From NCBI GenBank assembly GCA_902785485.1, contig CACZZA010000003.1:1-45760 (forward strand): a stretch of DNA of 45,760 nucleotides, in the 5' to 3' direction. Of the stretch, positions 17,394 to 42,202 are shown piece by piece (the first letter of the stretch is position 1; the number at the start of each line of letters is the position of its first letter). Position numbers and translations under genes: made by a program. This stretch comes from an uncultured Ruminococcus sp. Its GTDB lineage: Bacteria; Bacillota; Clostridia; Oscillospirales; CAG-272. The notes under the pieces were generated by a model. It was not told where the DNA came from, searched no databases, and worked only from the letters and a program-made list of their open reading frames with translations.

Positions 17394-17962
17394 ACGCAAG
17401 AGAATATCTCGATATACTCCACGTCGCGGAAAGGCTCAAAGACACCGTAAGGCACTGCACGACGTCAAAAGGAAGACCGGAGAGCGTCGCGGAACACAGC
17501 TGGCGCGTCGCCCTGATGGCGTTTCTTCTTCGCGACGAGTTTCCCAAAGCCGATATGAACAAGGTCGTGGATATGTGTCTTATCCACGATCTCGGCGAGT
17601 GCTTCACGGGAGATATACCGACGTTTCTCAAATCCGCGTCGGACGAAAAAACGGAGGAGGCGCTGCTCGGAGAATGGGTGGCTTCCCTTCCCGGCGGTAT
17701 AGCCGAACGGATGGCGTCGCTCTACGAAGAAATGAAGGAGCAAAGTACGGTCGAAGCAAAACTTTATAAGGCGCTCGACAAATTCGAGGCGCTGATACAG
17801 CACAACGAGTCGCCGCTCTGTACCTGGTCGGACAACGAATACGAACTGAACATGACCTACGCGAAAGACACGGCGGCGTTCTCGGAATGGCTGACCGGCT
17901 TACGAAAAGAGATCCTCAACGACACGCTCGAGAAGATCAAAAACGAAAAGACAGACAAATGA
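17390..17962 (+). CDS. HD-domain hydrolase, YfbR/HDDC2-like 5'-nucleotidase
   Basis: This 190-residue protein has the metal-binding HD pattern: ESVAEHSW (H36), LIHDLGE (H66-D67) and LDKFEAL near 129. The N-terminal RLKDTVRHCTTSKGRPESVAEHSW context is typical of YfbR/HDDC2 enzymes, which dephosphorylate deoxynucleoside 5'-monophosphates. The precise substrate is inferred from the family. It overlaps both neighbours by 4 bases, so it is translated as part of the train. Confidence 0.85.
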   Translation: MNAREYLDILHVAERLKDTVRHCTTSKGRPESVAEHSWRVALMAFLLRDEFPKADMNKVVDMCLIHDLGECFTGDIPTFLKSASDEKTEEALLGEWVASLPGGIAERMASLYEEMKEQSTVEAKLYKALDKFEALIQHNESPLCTWSDNEYELNMTYAKDTAAFSEWLTGLRKEILNDTLEKIKNEKTDK

Positions 17963-18495
17963 TCGAAATAATAGCAGGAAACGTATGCAGCGTCTGCGGG
18001 ATGATCTCGGACGCAGTCAGCGGAACGCGGAAGAAAAGGACGCACATCCTCATATCGCAGACCTTCAGCCTCGTTTTTTACGGGATAGGCTCCGTCATTC
18101 TCAAAGGCTACAGCAACACGGCGCAGAACGCGGTCGGGATCTTTCGCAACCTTGCGGCGATAAAGAACGTAAAGAGCAAGGTCCTTGAATGGACTCTCAT
18201 AGCGCTCGGAGTCATACTCGGGATATATTTCAACAACCGCGCGCTGATCGGATGGCTTCCCATTATCGCGAACCTCGAATATTCGGTCGCGGTCTTCCGT
18301 TTCAAAGAGAACACCTTCCTTCTCAAGCTCGCGTTTATGATAAACGCGCTTATGTTCGCGATCTTCAACTTTGCGATACAGAACTACGTCGGCACCGTCT
18401 CGTGTTCGGTAGTTTTCATAACGACTCTTATCGCACTTATCAAAGAAAAACACCCAAGCCCCGCCGCGCAGGACAGGCAGGAGGAGAACTCATGA
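17959..18495 (+). CDS. YgjV-family inner membrane protein
   Basis: The start ATG 17959 overlaps the preceding stop codon, giving 178 residues; longer upstream readings in frame only shadow the previous gene. The protein has about five to six hydrophobic helices, opening GNVCSVCGMISDAVS, then ISQTFSLVFYGIGSVILKGYSNTAQN split across the next helices, and LIGWLPIIANLEYS, all resembling the YgjV family. Its function is not known. It overlaps the next gene by 4 bases. Confidence 0.8.
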   Translation: MIEIIAGNVCSVCGMISDAVSGTRKKRTHILISQTFSLVFYGIGSVILKGYSNTAQNAVGIFRNLAAIKNVKSKVLEWTLIALGVILGIYFNNRALIGWLPIIANLEYSVAVFRFKENTFLLKLAFMINALMFAIFNFAIQNYVGTVSCSVVFITTLIALIKEKHPSPAAQDRQEENS

Positions 18496-18944
18496 GCAAA
18501 ATGAACTTCAAATACGTGCGTATCCAGGGAAAGCGACTCGCCAAAAACACAATGCACGCCAAGGGCGTTTTCAGTATGTGTATGGAAATGATACGCAACG
18601 AGGTCATGGACCCCGAGGACGCGGAGCTTTATATGGAGATCGACGGCTGGTTCTCCGAAAATCTCCCCTGGCCGCCGCAATGCCGTAATCAGGATCCGGT
18701 GATATGCTGGTTCAAGACCGAAAACTCCGAAGAAATGATGAAGATGATCCGCCCCGCGCTTTGGCTGCTCGAACGCTACAACGTGCCGTATTTTCTCGTT
18801 TACACCAACACACCGGGCGAGATCGTTTACGAGGACCGGTACCAGATCGTCGCAAAAACAGACGGGTACCTCGAGATCGACGAAGTCCCGAAGTCCTGGT
18901 CGCCCGACGCGGAAGAAAATGAAAAAACGACTCCCGGACAATGA
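18492..18944 (+). CDS. Conserved hypothetical soluble protein
   Basis: ATG 18492 overlaps the preceding stop (ATGA) and follows AGGAGAAC, giving 150 residues. I do not recognise the family. The protein is soluble and acidic, with a Trp/Pro-rich stretch (WFSENLPWPPQCRNQDPVI, about 57-75) and an alpha/beta-like middle ending VPYFLVYTN. The C-terminal 20 residues are low-complexity Glu/Pro. No signal peptide. It is the last of four overlapping genes after the sensor. Confidence 0.75.
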   Translation: MSKMNFKYVRIQGKRLAKNTMHAKGVFSMCMEMIRNEVMDPEDAELYMEIDGWFSENLPWPPQCRNQDPVICWFKTENSEEMMKMIRPALWLLERYNVPYFLVYTNTPGEIVYEDRYQIVAKTDGYLEIDEVPKSWSPDAEENEKTTPGQ

Positions 18945-23351: not shown

Positions 23352-24026
23352 ATGAAAAAAGCGCTTTTTCTGATCCTGCTCTGCTTATGCCTGCTTGCCG
23401 TCTCGTGCGGCGAGAGCGCCGAAAAAGTGAAAGACACCGATACTGCCGGAGTTAAGACCGCGTCTCCCGACGCGACCGAGGAAGCGACGTCTGAAACGAC
23501 CGAAGTCCCCGGTTCAGAGGCAGCGACCGAGGCTCCCGAGACCGAGCCTCCCGCCACCGAACCCCTGGCGACCGAACCTCCCGTGACTGAGCCGCCCGCT
23601 ACCGAACCTCCCGTGACGGAACCTCCGGCAACCGAGCCGCCCGCGGCAGTCGTTCCTCCTTCTCCGGATTACAACACCACCGTCGCGGGAGTGAGCGTTT
23701 ATTCCCCCGGACAGATCGCGGTAACGAATCCCGTTTACGTTACGATGTCGTCCGATCCGTATATCCGCAGAGTTATCCTTACGACCGACACTCCGATCTC
23801 AAACTTTGAAATAGCGGCGCTGAACTCAGACGGCAATGATCTGGGCGTCACCGTTTTTCAGACCATACCGGAATTCACTCCCGGAAAGCAGATCCTCGTA
23901 GACTATTTTCAACCCGAATATTTCCCCGGCGCTGGAGTACGTTTCACGGACGCCGGCGGAACGTCGCATCTGCTTGAGTTTGCCGTTTCAGGACTCGACG
24001 GTACCGTATTTTTTATAGAACACTAA
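23352..24026 (+). CDS. Lipoprotein with a Thr-Glu-Pro-Pro repeat stalk
   Basis: ATG 23352 follows AAAAGGAGACC. The 224-residue protein has a lipoprotein signal peptide (lipobox LAVSC, Cys 19), a 70-residue Thr/Glu/Ala linker that becomes a tandem TEPPA/TEPPV repeat (about 65-95), and a C-terminal domain of about 120 residues rich in beta strands (from YNTTVAGVSVYSPGQ on). The linker should hold the domain away from the membrane through the wall. I do not recognise the C-terminal domain. Confidence 0.85.
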   Translation: MKKALFLILLCLCLLAVSCGESAEKVKDTDTAGVKTASPDATEEATSETTEVPGSEAATEAPETEPPATEPLATEPPVTEPPATEPPVTEPPATEPPAAVVPPSPDYNTTVAGVSVYSPGQIAVTNPVYVTMSSDPYIRRVILTTDTPISNFEIAALNSDGNDLGVTVFQTIPEFTPGKQILVDYFQPEYFPGAGVRFTDAGGTSHLLEFAVSGLDGTVFFIEH

Positions 24027-24947: not shown

Positions 24948-25696
24948 GCTACACGGACATAAACGCGGAAACCATCGACCGTTGGATCGACGAGGGATGG
25001 GAGTGGGGGCGTCCCGTCACTCACGAGATCTGCGTCAAGGCAAAACAAGGCGAATGGGACGTTCTTCTCACCCCGACGAGACCCGTTCCGCACGTGTGGC
25101 TTGGCGACCTTCGCGGGAAAAAAGTCCTCGGGCTTGCGAGCGGAGGCGGTCAGCAGATGCCGGTCTTCGCAGTCCTCGGAGCCGAGTGTACGGTACTCGA
25201 CTATTCCGAAAAACAGCTTGAGAGCGAACGGCTCGTCGCCGCGCGGGAGGGGTATGAGATACGCGCCGTGCGCGCGGATATGACTCTCCCCCTGCCCTTT
25301 GAGGACGGGGAGTTCGATCTGATCTTTCATCCTGTGTCAAACTGCTACATCAAGGACGTGAAGCACGTCTGGCGAGAGTGCTTCCGCATACTGAAAAAGG
25401 GCGGAACGCTCCTTTCGGGAACGGACCACTACGTCAATTATATCGTTTCCGAGGACGAAAAGTCGGTCGTAAACCGTCTTCCGTTCGATCCGCTCGTCAA
25501 CAAAGATCAGATGGAAATGCTCGAACGGGAAGACTGCGGCGTGCAGTTCTCACACACTATCGAAGAACAGATAAACGGTCAGCTCGAAGCGGGATTCGTT
25601 CTGAAAGAGCTGTACGAAGACACGAACGGCTCGGGGTGGCTCCACGAACTCAATATCCCGACTTTTCTCGCCATGAGATCGGAGAAACCGTTATGA
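24944..25696 (+). CDS. Class I SAM-dependent methyltransferase
   Basis: This 250-residue protein has a Rossmann methyltransferase core: motif I VLGLASGGGQQ (61-71), acidic motif II VLDYSEKQL (84-92), ADMTLPLPFEDGEFDLI at motifs III-IV, and LKKGGTLLSGTDHYV. The N-terminus has Trp-rich IDRWIDEGWEWG, typical of a Firmicutes subgroup of unknown target. It overlaps the neighbouring genes by 4 bases each. Confidence 0.9.
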   Translation: MSYTDINAETIDRWIDEGWEWGRPVTHEICVKAKQGEWDVLLTPTRPVPHVWLGDLRGKKVLGLASGGGQQMPVFAVLGAECTVLDYSEKQLESERLVAAREGYEIRAVRADMTLPLPFEDGEFDLIFHPVSNCYIKDVKHVWRECFRILKKGGTLLSGTDHYVNYIVSEDEKSVVNRLPFDPLVNKDQMEMLEREDCGVQFSHTIEEQINGQLEAGFVLKELYEDTNGSGWLHELNIPTFLAMRSEKPL

Positions 25697-26166
25697 ATAC
25701 CGTCGTTATTCCCTCCCCGCTCGGGAGCGTACGGATAAGCGAAGATACTGCCGGGATATGCGAAATCTCGTTCGTTCCCGGAGAAAGACCGTCCGGAAAA
25801 CCCGATGGCAAATATATCCCGGAGGCGGCGCGACAGCTCGGCGAATATTTTGACGGCAAACGCAAGGTCTTTTCCGTTCCGCTCTCGATAGGCGGTACCG
25901 AATTTCAACGTAAGGTCTCGCGCGCGCTGCTCGAGATCCCCTACGGCGAAACGCGAAGCTATTCCGACGTCGCGCGTTCGGTCGGCAGTCCCCAAGCCTG
26001 CCGCGCGGTGGGCGGAGCCGCGAACAAAAACAAGCTCTGCATCATCGTCCCCTGCCACAGAGTTATAGGCAAAAACGGCGCTCCGGTCGGCTTCGCCGCC
26101 GGGGTGGATATAAAGCTCGCCCTGCTCGGACTGGAGAAAAAGAACTATGCTGCTGCACGAATTTGA
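25693..26166 (+). CDS. ogt: Methylated-DNA-protein cysteine methyltransferase (Ogt/MGMT)
   Basis: ATG 25693 overlaps the preceding stop codon, giving 157 residues. The active-site motif IIVPCHRVIG has the acceptor Cys 121, preceded by the helix-turn-helix recognition segment (SYSDVARSVGSPQACRAVG split around residues 92-110) with the Arg finger. It repairs O6-alkylguanine in DNA by suicide alkyl transfer. The C-terminal segment of this gene (26076-26145) is repeated at 27035-27104, fused to a copy of the SDR gene start. The 3' end overlaps the next gene by 20 bases. Confidence 0.95.
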   Translation: MNTVVIPSPLGSVRISEDTAGICEISFVPGERPSGKPDGKYIPEAARQLGEYFDGKRKVFSVPLSIGGTEFQRKVSRALLEIPYGETRSYSDVARSVGSPQACRAVGGAANKNKLCIIVPCHRVIGKNGAPVGFAAGVDIKLALLGLEKKNYAAARI

Positions 26167-26926
26167 TCCGCGGAAAAAAGCCGTTATAGATCCTTCTGAC
26201 ATAATGCCTCCGCTGCCGGATTTTCCCGAAAGCGTGGTGTCCGTGTTTTCGTACAGACTTTTCGAGCGGCTGCTTGATTATTTCGGACGTGAAAAGGTCG
26301 CCGAAACGAAAGACGTCGACGGGATCTTCCCGGTGTACGCCGTGAATTACAAGGGCAGACGTTTTGCATTTGCTAAAGGGCGACTCGGCGCGCCCGCGTG
26401 CGTCGGCACGTTCGAGGACGTTTTCGCCCTCGGCGGAAAAAGACTGATCCTGCTCGGAAACTGCGGAGTTCTGGACAAAAACATAGACGATTGTTCGGTG
26501 ATCATTCCCGACAAAGCTCTGCGCGACGAGGGAACGTCGTTCCACTACGCGCCGCCGTCGGACGTGATGGAAGTCAACAAAAAATACGCGGAGCTTTTCA
26601 AAAAGATATGCCGCGAGCACGGTTACTCATATACAGTGGGCACGACGTGGACGACCGACGCGTTTTACCGCGAAACTCCCGACAAGGTCGCGAGAAGGCG
26701 GGAGGCGGGCGCTATAACGGTCGATATGGAATGCGCCGCCGTTCAGGCATTCTGTGATTTTCGCGGGATAGAGTTTTTCCAGTTCTTCTACGCCGGAGAC
26801 AACCTCGACGCCGCGGTATGGGATCCGCGCAGTCTGTCCGGCGCGGTGAGGCTCGACGACAAGGAAAAAATCGCGCTGCTTGCCTTCGAGCTTGCGTACA
26901 GAATAGAAAAAGATGAAACGACCTGA
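26147..26926 (+). CDS. Nucleoside phosphorylase family protein
   Basis: This 259-residue protein matches the PNP/UDP family: GAPACVGTFEDVFALGGKRLI near 83-103, LLGNCGVLDKNI phosphate-loop region, WTTDAFYRETPD near 168 and DMECAAVQAFCDFRG near 191-205 with the Met-Glu ribose-binding pair. It would split nucleosides with phosphate to base and pentose-1-phosphate; purine or pyrimidine preference is not clear. It overlaps ogt by 20 bases in another frame, so these are coupled. Confidence 0.88.
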   Translation: MLLHEFDPRKKAVIDPSDIMPPLPDFPESVVSVFSYRLFERLLDYFGREKVAETKDVDGIFPVYAVNYKGRRFAFAKGRLGAPACVGTFEDVFALGGKRLILLGNCGVLDKNIDDCSVIIPDKALRDEGTSFHYAPPSDVMEVNKKYAELFKKICREHGYSYTVGTTWTTDAFYRETPDKVARRREAGAITVDMECAAVQAFCDFRGIEFFQFFYAGDNLDAAVWDPRSLSGAVRLDDKEKIALLAFELAYRIEKDETT

Positions 26927-26937
26927 ACATGAAGCGG

Positions 26938-26996
26938 CAATATGTAATACGGCATATCCGCGTTCATCGCCGCGTATTTCATAACAGCGGCGGAAA
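26938..26996 (+). pseudogene. Decayed duplicate of the start of the membrane-protein gene at 27118
   Basis: From ATG 26942, 52 bases match the first 52 bases of the gene at 27118 with seven differences. The second codon AAA is TAA here, so the copy stops at once. Most of the other changes are silent or conservative, which suggests a real gene copy that later decayed. It is followed directly by an exact copy of the SDR gene start. Confidence 0.75.
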
Positions 26997-27002
26997 CAAG
27001 AA

Positions 27003-27104
27003 TAAAGGAGTAATATGAAAACTGCGATTATAACCGGCGCTCCGGTCGGCTTCGCCGCCGGGGTGGATATAAAGCTCGCCCTGCTCGGGACAGAGAAAAA
27101 GAAC
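27003..27104 (+). repeat. Duplicated fragments: SDR gene start joined to ogt gene end
   Basis: Bases 27003-27040 are identical to 27757-27794 (ribosome binding site and first codons of the SDR gene). Bases 27035-27088 are identical to 26076-26129 (end of ogt), and 27089-27104 match 26130-26145 with four changes. The two source segments share CGGCGC at the joint (27035-27040), which looks like a microhomology junction. Confidence 0.85.
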
Positions 27105-27113
27105 AAGGAGTAA
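27015..27113 (+). CDS. 32-residue chimeric ORF (SDR N-terminus fused to Ogt C-terminus)
   Basis: ATG 27015 carries the same AAAGGAGTAAT ribosome binding site as the SDR gene. The first nine residues are MKTAIITGA from the SDR start. From there the frame runs into PVGFAAGVDIKLALLG from the Ogt C-terminus and ends TEKKNKE and TAA at 27111. The frame is open across the junction and agrees with both parents. It is probably translated because of its position in the operon, but it holds no whole domain. Function, if any, is unknown; it may simply be a recombination scar. Confidence 0.4.
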   Translation: MKTAIITGAPVGFAAGVDIKLALLGTEKKNKE

Positions 27114-27117
27114 TGAT

Positions 27118-27759
27118 ATGAAATACGGCGAATCCGCGTTCATCGTCGCGTATCTCATCACGGCGGCGGTGCTCGGGGTACTGATCTTACGCAAAGCGAA
27201 AACAAAAGCGGCGAAGCTAATGGGCATTTCGGCGCTCGTCCTCTGCTCGGGCGACGCTTTCCACCTCGTTCCGCGCGTTATCGCGCATTTTTCGGAGAGC
27301 GACCTTTCTTTATACCTCGGCTTAGGCAAGCTCGTGACGTCGCTCACGATGACCGTCTTTTACCTGCTCGTCTATTACGTTTACGTATATTATTACAAAA
27401 AGAACGAAAACAAAAGGCTCGCGCTGTGCCTTTGGGCGCTCGTCATTATCAGAGCCGTCCTCTGCGCCTTCCCGCAAAACGGCTGGACGGTCAACAGTAC
27501 GGACGCGACGTGGGGAATAATACGCAATATTCCGTTCGTGATCCTCGGGGCGATAGTCGCCTATCTGTATTTCAAAGAAAGAAAAAGTTCGCGCGCCTTT
27601 CGCTTTATATGGCTGTATATCTGCCTTTCGTTCGCGTTCTATATCCCCGTCGCGGTCTTCGCCGGTATGCTCCCCGTCCTCGGGATGCTGATGATACCCA
27701 AGACCGTTTGCTACGTGCTGATACTGTTCGCTTTTTACAAAGAGGCTGACAAGACTTAA
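27118..27759 (+). CDS. Unrecognised six-helix membrane protein
   Basis: This 213-residue protein has about six to seven membrane helices (starting 5-23, 33-55, 66-95) with short loops. A GDAFHLVPRV motif lies near 45-54 and a Tyr-rich VYYVYVYYYKK stretch near 85-95. I do not recognise the family; the layout resembles small membrane sensors without an output domain. AAGGAGTAATGAT precedes the ATG. A decayed copy of its first 52 bases lies at 26942. Confidence 0.75.
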   Translation: MKYGESAFIVAYLITAAVLGVLILRKAKTKAAKLMGISALVLCSGDAFHLVPRVIAHFSESDLSLYLGLGKLVTSLTMTVFYLLVYYVYVYYYKKNENKRLALCLWALVIIRAVLCAFPQNGWTVNSTDATWGIIRNIPFVILGAIVAYLYFKERKSSRAFRFIWLYICLSFAFYIPVAVFAGMLPVLGMLMIPKTVCYVLILFAFYKEADKT

Positions 27760-27768
27760 AGGAGTAAT

Positions 27769-28500
27769 ATGAAAACTGCGATTATAACCGGCGCGTCGCG
27801 CGGGATCGGACGGGAGATCGCCCGCGTCCTTGCAAAGCGCGGCTACGCCGTCATGATAAACTGCAACGCATCGCCCGACAAAGCCGTTTCCCTCGCTGAC
27901 GAAATACGCGCAAACGGCGGAAGGGCGGAAGTTATGAAAGCGGATATATCCGTTCCGGAAGAGGCGAAGTCTCTCGTCCGGCAAACCGTTGAAACGCTCG
28001 GGGAGCCGGACCTTCTCGTCAACAACGCCGGAGTCGCTCTGTGGGGACTCTTCACCGACGCGGGAGACCCGGAGATCGAAAAAGTCGTCTCCACCGACCT
28101 TACGGGAGCGATGATAATATCCCGCGAGTGCGCGAAATATATGATAAAACGCAAAGAAGGCGTTATTATCAACGTCGCCTCGATGTGGGGAGAGGTCGGC
28201 GCCTCGTGCGAGGTCGTCTACTCGGCGGCAAAAGCGGGGATCATCGGCTTCACCAAAGCGCTCGCCAAAGAACTCGCGCCAAGCGGCATACGCGTCAACT
28301 GCGTGTCCCCGGGGGTGATCGATACCGATATGATGTCACGGTTTTCACCCGAGGAAATAAAGGCTCTCTGTGACGAGATACCGCTCGGGCGTCTCGGAAC
28401 GCCGCGCGACGTCGCCTCGGCAGTCGCGTTTCTCGCGTCGGACGAAGCGTCTTATATCACGGGACAGACGCTCTCCGTAAACGGCGGATCTGTCATCTGA
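27769..28500 (+). CDS. Short-chain dehydrogenase/reductase, FabG-like
   Basis: This 243-residue SDR has the nucleotide motif TGASRGIG (7-14), NNAG near 88, the catalytic Tyr 151 and Lys 155 (YSAAK), and a C-terminal ASYITGQTLSVNGG motif, as in 3-oxoacyl-ACP reductases. The Arg after the Gly motif suggests NADPH. Whether it serves fatty-acid synthesis or another substrate is open, since no fab genes are near. Its first 38 bases with the ribosome binding site are duplicated at 27003. Confidence 0.92.
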   Translation: MKTAIITGASRGIGREIARVLAKRGYAVMINCNASPDKAVSLADEIRANGGRAEVMKADISVPEEAKSLVRQTVETLGEPDLLVNNAGVALWGLFTDAGDPEIEKVVSTDLTGAMIISRECAKYMIKRKEGVIINVASMWGEVGASCEVVYSAAKAGIIGFTKALAKELAPSGIRVNCVSPGVIDTDMMSRFSPEEIKALCDEIPLGRLGTPRDVASAVAFLASDEASYITGQTLSVNGGSVI

Positions 28501-38516: not shown

Positions 38517-38616
38517 ATATATCTCCTCTCAAATAAATAAATTCTTAGCGGTTTTTTGTTAGGAAAGCAACGTAAAAAAATTGATTTCGGCAAAGCGATT
38601 GATGTTTTTTTAATTC

Positions 38617-38658
38617 TTTTACACAAAAACGAAATGGTCTTATGCTGGCAGCATAGAA
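38617..38658. repeat. Direct repeat copy 1 with TATGCT-N3-AGCATA palindrome
   Basis: About 40 bases, from ACACAAAAACG to CATAGAA, match 39011-39055 at roughly 85 percent. The core TATGCT/AGCATA inverted repeat is at 38641-38655. It lies in the divergent intergenic region 38517-38762, upstream of the XRE gene. Confidence 0.75.
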
Positions 38659-38762: not shown

Positions 38763-38969
38763 ATGGACTACCGCACGAGGATGCGCGATCTGCGCGAGGA
38801 CAACGACCTGACGCAGGAGCAGGTCGGGAAGATACTAAACAAATCACAGCAAGGGTATAACCACATCGAGGCGGGGCGCGCAGAATTGAAGATCGAAGAT
38901 CTTATAAAGCTATGCCGGCTTTATAAAGTGTCGGCGGACTATTTCATCGGCCTAAGCGACAAGAAATAA
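38763..38969 (+). CDS. Small XRE-family helix-turn-helix regulator
   Basis: ATG 38763 has GGAGGT 7 bases upstream; the in-frame GTG ten codons earlier has no such site. The 68-residue product is a bare HTH_3 domain: MRDLREDNDLTQEQVGKIL, SQQGYNHIEAGRAELKIEDL and LYKVSADYFIGLSD, as in phage-repressor-like and Rgg/ImmR-type regulators. It is GC-richer than the neighbouring AT-rich genes. It probably represses from the palindromic sites upstream, which could also control the divergent pair at 36465-38516. Confidence 0.92.
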   Translation: MDYRTRMRDLREDNDLTQEQVGKILNKSQQGYNHIEAGRAELKIEDLIKLCRLYKVSADYFIGLSDKK

Positions 38970-38982
38970 GACTTATTCCCGG

Positions 38983-39002
38983 GGCGCGTCGGCGCCTTTT
39001 TT
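38983..39002 (+). terminator. Terminator of the XRE gene
   Basis: GGCGC/GCGCC stem with a GTCG loop (38983-38996) followed by six T residues, 14 bases after the stop codon. Confidence 0.85.
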
Positions 39003-39010
39003 CTTTGATT

Positions 39011-39055
39011 CTATCACACAAAAACGGAAAAGTCTTATGCTGAGAGCATAGAAAT
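39011..39055. repeat. Direct repeat copy 2 with TATGCT-N3-AGCATA palindrome
   Basis: Second copy of the repeat found at 38617-38658, in the same orientation, about 395 bases on; core palindrome 39036-39050. The XRE gene and its terminator lie between the two copies. Confidence 0.75.
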
Positions 39056-39202: not shown

Positions 39203-39684
39203 GATAAACAAGAATTTAGCGAAAAGAACGCAAGGGGACCCTTTTAAGGAAAGGTTCACCTTGACTCCTCTAAACCTTTCAGAGGGAAAGAAATATAAAC
39301 AAGAATTTAGCGAAATGTTTGAACGATTGAATCAACAAACGACAGGCGCAAACTTCACCTATCCGTGTCGAGAGAACGTCTATGTCAATAGCTCACCCCT
39401 CTGGGGGAGCTGTCGACGAAGTCGACTGAGAGGGCACACGTGCGGTTGGTTGCTATTCGTAAAACCCTCTCCGTCACGGCGGGCGTAACACGCCGTGCCA
39501 CCTCTCCCAAAGTGAGAGGTACCGGGTAGTGGTCGCTCGCCGCCTCGAGGTGAAATCCGTGCAGTTCCTCCGCTAAATTCTTGTTTATCTTTCTATTCCC
39601 TCTGTAAGGTTTTTGGAGGGGGTGGGAACCTTTTTGCCTAAAAAGGTTCCCACGCTCCGTTCTTTCGCTTAATTCTTGTTTACC
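39203..39684. mobile_element. MITE-like non-coding element with nested terminal inverted repeats
   Basis: The motif TAAACAAGAATTTAGCG occurs four times: direct at 39203-39223 and 39294-39314, inverted at 39571-39589 and 39664-39684. The outer blocks 39203-39314 and 39571-39684 are imperfect inverted repeats of each other over about 113 bases, with the same spacing and a shared CAGAGGGAA segment. The right block holds a perfect 14-bp hairpin (39622-39635 with 39640-39653). The centre (about 39388-39522) has its own inverted-repeat unit with hairpins GTCGAC/GTCGAC, CACGGCG/CGCCGTG and ACCTCTC/GAGAGGT. I see no believable gene. Mobility is inferred from structure. Confidence 0.65.
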
Positions 39685-40857: not shown

Positions 40858-41487
40858 TTATTTCGTCTCCGCGTTCATCGGGAGCCTGACTTCGGCGTAA
40901 CATCCGCCCTCGAGCGGCATACCGTTGTAGTAAACGAAACATTCGGTCCCGGAAAACGCCATGCCCGCCGGATCAGGCGCCTCGTCTTTTTCAAAAATAA
41001 ACTTATAAAAACTGTCTTTGAGCTGTTCCTTTGCCGCCGCTTTCAGTTCAGCGGCGTCGGGAGAATAGATCTCAAAACCGCTCTTGACCGTCGCCGTTAC
41101 GGGATCGACGTTGACCGGGATGACGAACAGCAACTCTCCTCCGGTCTGCGCGGCGTCGTCAGCGTACGTACATTTGTAAACCACGCTGATGAGCGCGTCC
41201 GACGCCTGCTTTATCTCATAATCGACTTTGAGCAGAACGTTTTTCGGCGCATTTTCGGACATTGCATCGTTTATCACGTCGTTTTCCATAAGGAGATCAT
41301 AAAGCAGATCGTTTATTTCTTTATCCCTTTCATAGGTATTTTTGAATTCGGGATAAGAAATGCTGATATGCCCCTTGTTAACCTCTTTTTTTGCTGTCTC
41401 GTTCTCCTTCCCGTCTCCGCAGGCAAAAGCGGAAAGCAAAAAGAGAAACGACAGGACGATGAGCAAAACTGTCTTTACGGTCTTCAT
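40858..41487 (-). CDS. Lipoprotein with DUF4163/RsiV-like domain and three tandem start sites
   Basis: From ATG 41487 the product has 209 residues: signal peptide with lipobox SAFAC (Cys 23), then a domain with ISISYPEFKNTYERDKEINDLL near 37-58, resembling the DUF4163/DUF3298 part of PdaC and RsiV-like proteins. Two further in-frame ATGs at 41514 and 41541 each have their own AAGGAGT and would add 9 or 18 residues rich in Lys, Arg and Thr before the signal peptide. I prefer 41487 because it begins right at the signal peptide. Ligand or enzyme function is unknown. Confidence 0.82.
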   Translation of the reverse strand: MKTVKTVLLIVLSFLFLLSAFACGDGKENETAKKEVNKGHISISYPEFKNTYERDKEINDLLYDLLMENDVINDAMSENAPKNVLLKVDYEIKQASDALISVVYKCTYADDAAQTGGELLFVIPVNVDPVTATVKSGFEIYSPDAAELKAAAKEQLKDSFYKFIFEKDEAPDPAGMAFSGTECFVYYNGMPLEGGCYAEVRLPMNAETK

Positions 41488-41558
41488 TTTTTTACTCCTT
41501 TTTTCGGTCTTCATTTTTGTACTCCTTTTTTCGGTCTTCATTTTTGTACTCCTTTTTT
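41478..41558 (-). repeat. Three tandem 27-bp units, each with a ribosome binding site and ATG
   Basis: Units at 41478-41504, 41505-41531 and 41532-41558 are almost identical (one T/G variation). Read on the minus strand each holds AAAAAAGGAGT, five or six bases, then ATGAAGACC. Being 27 bases long, the units keep all three ATGs in one frame. A degenerate partial copy continues into the end of the upstream channel gene (41559-41578). Confidence 0.92.
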
Positions 41559-41569
41559 CGGTCTCGTTT

Positions 41570-42202
41570 TTACGGTCTCGGAAGGTTGAGCCTGAACCTC
41601 GCCGCGAGGAAACGTATCGTCATAACTACGACGAAGCCGACAAGCATACTGACGTATTCGGGTAGAGCGGGTACCAGATAAAACAGCAAAAAGCAGACGA
41701 GCGCCCCGGCTATCGACGCGGACGCGTACACGTGCTTGACGAATATGTAAGGTCTGTCGCCCGCGAAAACGTCGCGCATCACTCCGCCTCCGACGCCGGT
41801 CAGCACCGCGACGAACACGACGAGAAATCCGTTGTCGCCGAATCCCGCGTCGACCGCGATCTTTGCTCCGACGACGGTGAAGATCCCGAGTCCTGCGGAG
41901 TCAGATACGAGCAGAAGCAGTTCAAGCAGAGTGTGTTTCTTTTCAAAATACCGCCGTACGAACGGCAGGAACGTCACTACGGACGTCGATATGGCAACGA
42001 TGATGTATACAGGATCCCGGAAAGTCGACGGAGGGGTTATGCCGAGGATAAGGTCGCGTATGATACCGCCTCCGGTCGCGGTCGTCAGTCCGAGCACGCA
42101 GATACCGAATATATCCATCCGCTTTTTTATGGCGGTGATGGCTCCCGAGATCGCGAACGCGACGGTACCGATTATTTCGAGAATCAGAATGAATATCTCC
42201 AT
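41570..42202 (-). CDS. TRIC-type cation channel family protein (YicG/UPF0126)
   Basis: This 210-residue protein has seven hydrophobic helices in two repeats, each with a glycine-rich kink: AISGAITAIKKRMDIFGICVLG with TATGGGIIRDLI in the first and GVGGGVMRDVFAG in the second. These GGGxxRD motifs mark the bacterial trimeric intracellular cation channel family. The physiological ion in bacteria is not settled. It has its own promoter overlapping the end of the upstream methyltransferase gene, and GGGGG precedes the ATG. Confidence 0.92.
   Translation of the reverse strand: MEIFILILEIIGTVAFAISGAITAIKKRMDIFGICVLGLTTATGGGIIRDLILGITPPSTFRDPVYIIVAISTSVVTFLPFVRRYFEKKHTLLELLLLVSDSAGLGIFTVVGAKIAVDAGFGDNGFLVVFVAVLTGVGGGVMRDVFAGDRPYIFVKHVYASASIAGALVCFLLFYLVPALPEYVSMLVGFVVVMTIRFLAARFRLNLPRP

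Follow-up and report, generated by a model that had tools for sequence, protein, structure and literature searches.

We find that about 190 bp of DNA between a nucleoside phosphorylase-superfamily gene (N) and a membrane-protein gene (M) of an uncultured Ruminococcus sp. consist of copied pieces of neighbouring genes, and that this scar is probably (at roughly 60%, judging from the sequence) a real rearrangement that arose by tandem duplication inside one genome and subsequent loss, with no designed element in it. Working copies, one each of ogt, N, M and the SDR gene, are left beside the scar.

Three duplicated segments between N and M

The scar lies in contig C3, the whole of which (45,760 nt) was the window analysed, within a draft genome of 2.34 Mb in 210 contigs. 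The genes around it run in one direction and are closely packed, in the order methyltransferase, ogt (O), N, M, SDR (S), a ybaK-like gene and a last gene that, from its sequence family, we take to be serine dehydratase-like. With the copied segments A, B and C included, the order across the region is O-N-A-B-C-M-S. The segments were defined by self-comparison, in which three high-scoring direct matches together cover the scar.

25693..26166, + strand: ogt (O), methylated-DNA--protein-cysteine methyltransferase, parent of segment C (Pfam PF01035, E=8e-30; NCBIfam TIGR00589 above cut-off)
26076..26129, + strand: parent sequence of C, exact over 54 bp, starting with the CGGCGC microhomology (self-comparison)
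26147..26926, + strand: nucleoside phosphorylase-superfamily gene (N), single copy, overlapping the ogt end (Pfam PF01048, E=4e-25)
26925..26993, + strand: segment A, decayed copy of M from its upstream region to codon 17, with a stop in place of codon 2 and no RBS left (self-comparison)
26929..27018, + strand: ORF of 29 codons in A that shares ATGA with the chimeric ORF and probably arose by chance (49% of simulated random A decays give a bridging ORF)
26996..27040, + strand: segment B, copy of the last bases of M, the SDR RBS and the first SDR codons; exact part 27003-27040 (self-comparison)
27015..27113, + strand: 32-codon chimeric ORF MKTAIITGA-PVGFAAGVDIKLALLGTEKKNKE; its RBS, AAAGGAG, was copied with the SDR start, and its stop precedes the M start codon by 4 nt; no Pfam match
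27032..27104, + strand: segment C, copied from the 3′ end of ogt; exact over 54 bp at 27035-27088 (self-comparison)
27035..27040, + strand: CGGCGC joint of B and C, common to both parents (SDR 27789-27794, ogt 26076-26081); 6 bp microhomology
27118..27759, + strand: membrane-protein gene (M) in its intact form, from which A derives; rumen Clostridia and other Bacillota have homologs of 36-62% identity
27769..28500, + strand: SDR gene (S), EF-P 5-aminopentanone reductase YmfI type, parent of B (NF047420, 275 bits against a cut-off of 238)

The E-values of the three self-matches, 4e-10 to 1e-25, exclude chance, and the duplicated segments that the original prediction had placed between N and M were all recovered. 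Segment A matches the start of M over 54 bp (26940-26993 against 27116-27169, 87%, E=4e-10) and can be extended without a gap back to the GAAC at 26925, which makes it 69 bp long, with 14 positions changed, 10 by transitions; in its RBS block 7 of the 11 positions differ from M, 6 by transitions. Segment B matches its parent over 46 bp (26996-27040 against 27749-27794, 96%, E=2e-13), with an exact core of 38 bp (27003-27040 against 27757-27794). On its left, B also covers the 3′-terminal bases of M (ACAAGA-TAAAGGAG), a point to be added to the original prediction, and because the homology of B includes these bases, A and B together amount to an internally deleted M followed by the start of SDR. 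Segment C aligns with ogt over 74 columns (27032-27104 against 26073-26145, 94.6%, E=1e-25), 54 bp being exact, and here we add that all the differences fall in one cluster (GGACTGGAG versus GGGACAGAG); the conserved Leu of the ogt LLxLE is replaced by Thr in C. C ends in KKNKE*, a tail similar to the short ones of ogt homologs, whereas present-day ogt runs instead into the start of N, whose homologs have the common start MLLEEFD/MILEEFD.

When the scar segment was compared with its own whole genome, the only matches were itself, the parental ogt and the M-end/SDR-start sites. The sequence read comprised 1.72 Mb of the 2.34 Mb, of which 1.35 Mb were scanned for repeats. Within this sample of the genome, the scar is the sole place where the second copy of a repeat directly adjoins another repeat's first copy; the same pattern was found neither elsewhere in the 1.35 Mb nor in 0.77 Mb of relatives' loci.

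Probable tandem duplication and loss

The joining of B and C at CGGCGC, also claimed by the original prediction, was borne out, since the two matches overlap there and both parents contain the motif. If S and O were joined at random, at least 6 bp of identity would occur with P=0.0033, a value that favours duplication within the genome, and short GC-rich microhomology is a join-point substrate used in experimental bacterial tandem duplication (PMC11111574). The novel joint ties the downstream end of the unit (SDR start) to its upstream end (ogt end), and A, B and C are direct-orientation copies of neighbours at most 1 kb away, arranged as would be expected of a head-to-tail repeat after duplication and loss; both features are those of a tandem-duplication scar. 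Most simply, B|C would be the tandem-duplication joint itself, ogt end to SDR start, in which case a complete second copy of SDR or ogt need never have existed. Tandem duplication with loss, as originally predicted, is the best-supported reading, whereas the internal deletions inside full SDR and ogt copies that were predicted along with it are possible but superfluous.

The direction of change in A can be read from the M family. Close M homologs all start with MKYGES/T..F; the intact M agrees and A deviates (codon 2 stop, E5I, L13F). Since the intact M keeps the conserved family start and A departs from it, the changes happened in A, which is the dead copy, and since the lineage-specific residues I9 and A11 are common to A and M, A was copied from the M of its own lineage. 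A dead copy with a nonsense codon beside an intact M with a conserved start is a further point for duplication within one genome.

Segments, parents, joints and the direction in which A changed are shown by the comparisons; from them we infer the following order of events. Out-of-register joining at the 6-bp CGGCGC common to the SDR start and the ogt end would have led to a tandem duplication, the joint of which would be the present B|C. The redundant parts would then have been lost separately, the first M copy being reduced to its first ~17 codons and last bases. As for the second unit, N may have been deleted from it between two GAAC copies or may never have been there: GAAC stands on both sides of N, so that its absence from the second unit could be a 4-bp microhomology deletion or, alternatively, N could have entered the first unit. 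The single N does weigh against the duplication, which has to assume either that a second copy was deleted or that the units were unlike from the start, and so does the lack of any intermediate in the relatives compared, which leaves the order of events without polarity.

The uneven divergence of the segments is a third point against it. In A, 7 of 54 positions are changed (14 of 69 with the upstream block) compared with 0 of 92 in the exact cores of B and C, which a single event followed by even decay does not predict. The Fisher test gives p = 0.0007, an optimistic value in that the exact cores were chosen as the unchanged parts; when the C cluster is counted as four changes, p rises to 0.04. 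The 7 of 11 positions changed in the upstream block of A point in the same direction. Equal age would predict changes at synonymous sites in B and C too, so either A is older or two haplotypes were fused at CGGCGC. Given how much further A has diverged than B and C, the scar would have required either multiple steps or the joining of two strain haplotypes, and the earlier hint of more than one event gains support from this contrast.

Possible haplotype fusion or assembly artefact

The joining of two haplotypes, which we consider less likely, would involve a lineage carrying ogt-N-(dead M)-SDR and another carrying ogt-M-SDR, the second being placed behind the first by an out-of-register joint at CGGCGC, so that a working M was restored in one step. 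By this one joint it would be explained that N occurs once, that A is old and that B and C are fresh, and also that C ends in KKNKE* like the short ogt-homolog tails and has a single cluster of differences. However, the ogt and SDR ends would have to be identical over 92 bp while A decayed by 13-20%, which means that the flanks must have been homogenised by recombination, and strains of either type were absent from the genomes compared.

Could the scar be a product of the assembly instead, the possibility that the original prediction itself had named as refuting it? An assembler might have set two strain variants, one arm with N and the dead M and the other with M, in tandem, and the layout does resemble a falsely tandem bubble in an assembly of 210 contigs that contains gaps of Ns. 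Nevertheless, we judge this unlikely. Fourteen contig-end overlaps measure exactly 99 bp and none is longer, as expected for a final k of ~100; this k exceeds both exact repeats, so that the order of the segments should be resolved, and a false tandem bubble would leave flanks of 99 bp rather than the 38 and 54 bp found here. A true microhomology of 6 bp would be improbable under blind trimming (P=0.0033), and the signature is absent elsewhere in the 1.35 Mb of genome scanned. In addition, the window holds no run of Ns; contig numbering follows falling length except in apparently scaffolded contigs, where most such runs sit, and C3 belongs to the regular, length-sorted and apparently unscaffolded series. 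The unique abutting pattern and the value of k speak in favour of duplication within the genome. Contig-end overlaps can be used in this manner to judge whether a feature seen in a draft genome might have been made by the assembly.

The chimeric mini-ORF

As the original prediction described, the joint carries a 32-codon ORF (27015-27113) with a good RBS (AAAGGAG) and with both parts in their parental frames. MKTAIITGA comes from SDR and PVGFAAGVDIKLALLG.EKKNKE from ogt, and the predicted chimeric product contains the peptide stretch MKTAIITGAPVGFAAGVDIKLALLGTEKKNKE. The mini-ORF is probably translated at some level and its ribosomes may continue into M, while its existence is most likely a by-product of the duplication.

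A role of the mini-ORF as a translated spacer is compatible with any of the origins considered, though it is unlikely. It would have been kept because ribosomes stopping 4 nt before M open or protect the M start, replacing a coupling that once came from ogt. The TAA stop does lie 4 nt before the ATG of M, and the AAGGAG of M is inside the last mini-ORF codons; moreover, pairing between A and the start region of M is predicted at -26.1 kcal/mol, a value that 2% of simulated decays reach, and the fold of the whole scar has z=-2.3. However, the pairing test was post hoc and its p=0.02 is to be taken as a lead, the geometry, though suited to translational coupling, was taken over from an ogt-M junction, a strong RBS belongs to M itself, and the locus stands in a single genome. 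A very improbable alternative is that the scar has been co-opted, with A pairing with the M start and the mini-ORF, translated from the copied SDR RBS, opening it, so that debris would have become a translational control leader of M. The 29-codon ORF in A was rejected as a selected leader because about half of the random decays yield one. No Rfam match was found in the window at the gathering threshold, and a known structured RNA was rejected as the identity of the scar.

The proposal that the mini-ORF is a newborn gene, whose 32-residue chimeric protein is expressed and selected, found no positive support and is very improbable. Initiation signals and an open frame are present on 27015-27113 as a newborn gene would have them, with a good RBS and both halves in the frames of their parents; the SDR part is free of substitutions, and 54 bases of the ogt part are exact. 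However, two joined pieces would both be in frame in 1 case out of 3, and the RBS was brought along by the duplicated SDR start. The identity extends to synonymous sites and hence points to a young copy rather than to selection on the protein. The SDR half is a truncated Rossmann beta-strand/turn and the ogt half a C-terminal helix whose conserved Leu is now Thr; neither is a domain (no Pfam match). The locus is known from one genome only and was absent from the relatives compared.

Relatives and known systems

The O-N-M-S order was found in relatives neither by searches with the ogt, N, M and SDR proteins, which covered 395 family genomes for each of the four genes and 1 genome in the genus, nor by a contig scan. 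Among the genomes compared, the genus is represented by this one alone, with no other species. The conserved neighbourhood is limited to SDR-ybaK(-sda) in one other genus, where the gene before SDR is presumably GNAT-family-like; no neighbourhood of ogt, N or M is held in common. As none of the relatives compared keeps the gene order, neither an intact duplicate, for which the original prediction had proposed to look in related genomes, nor the unduplicated state was seen among them.

Events of this kind are known, and the scar is a well-preserved instance. It resembles spontaneous bacterial tandem duplications (e.g. Anderson and Roth 1978, cited in PMC11111574) in the short GC-rich microhomology joint and in the fusion of a downstream gene start to an upstream gene end; it differs from them in that the unit has been largely lost again, leaving the joint and fragments, and in being a natural relic and not the outcome of laboratory selection. 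With operon gene remnants and pseudogene fragments it has in common a decayed, truncated copy of a neighbour with a nonsense codon and a lost RBS, but here three remnants of three genes stand back to back and one joint makes an in-frame ORF. Chimeric genes at tandem-duplication boundaries likewise take a 5′ part and RBS from one gene and a 3′ part, in frame, from another, whereas the putative product of the scar has 32 residues and no complete domain. It is a clean natural case of how a short microhomology joint and later losses can keep the gene order and deposit a short chimeric frame with a ready-made RBS. Scars of this kind supply material for new small genes and make plain that in-frame chimeras arise easily without selection.

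Other repeats in the contig and genome

Several other repeats were noted. On the same contig as the scar, a small tandem start-site duplication lies at 41474-41571 (minus strand, at the start of the gene ending at 40858), where a unit of ~27 bp with RBS and start codon (AAAAAAGGAGTAnAAAAATGAAGACCG) occurs ~3 times with the starts in frame (MKTEKRSTKMKTEKRSKKMKTVK...). An imperfect inverted repeat of ~110 bp (39205-39312 and 39571-39682, 80%, arm ends AAACAAGAATTTAGCGAAA) surrounds a block of ~260 bp, part of which (GTCGACGAAGTCGACTGAGAGGGCAC) recurs at other contig ends and looks like a dispersed non-coding repeat, possibly MITE-like. A sequence of ~55 bp is present twice, at 38605-38658 and 38999-39053 (84%; CACAAAAACGnAAnnGTCTTATGCTG..AGCATAGAA), on both sides of a small HTH-regulator-like gene at ~38764-38967, and a lipoprotein-like gene contains a short in-frame tandem repeat at 23523-23644 (TEPPATEPPVTEPP...). 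Elsewhere in the genome, contig C10 carries an apparent CRISPR array (17646-18860, 66-bp spacing, repeat of the GTTTATCAATATCCATCAGAGAACTAAAAC type), and contigs C4 (1-5400) and C60 (2508-5518) hold tandem paralogous genes 85-87% alike in DNA, recent duplications that have been kept, unlike the lost duplication at the scar.
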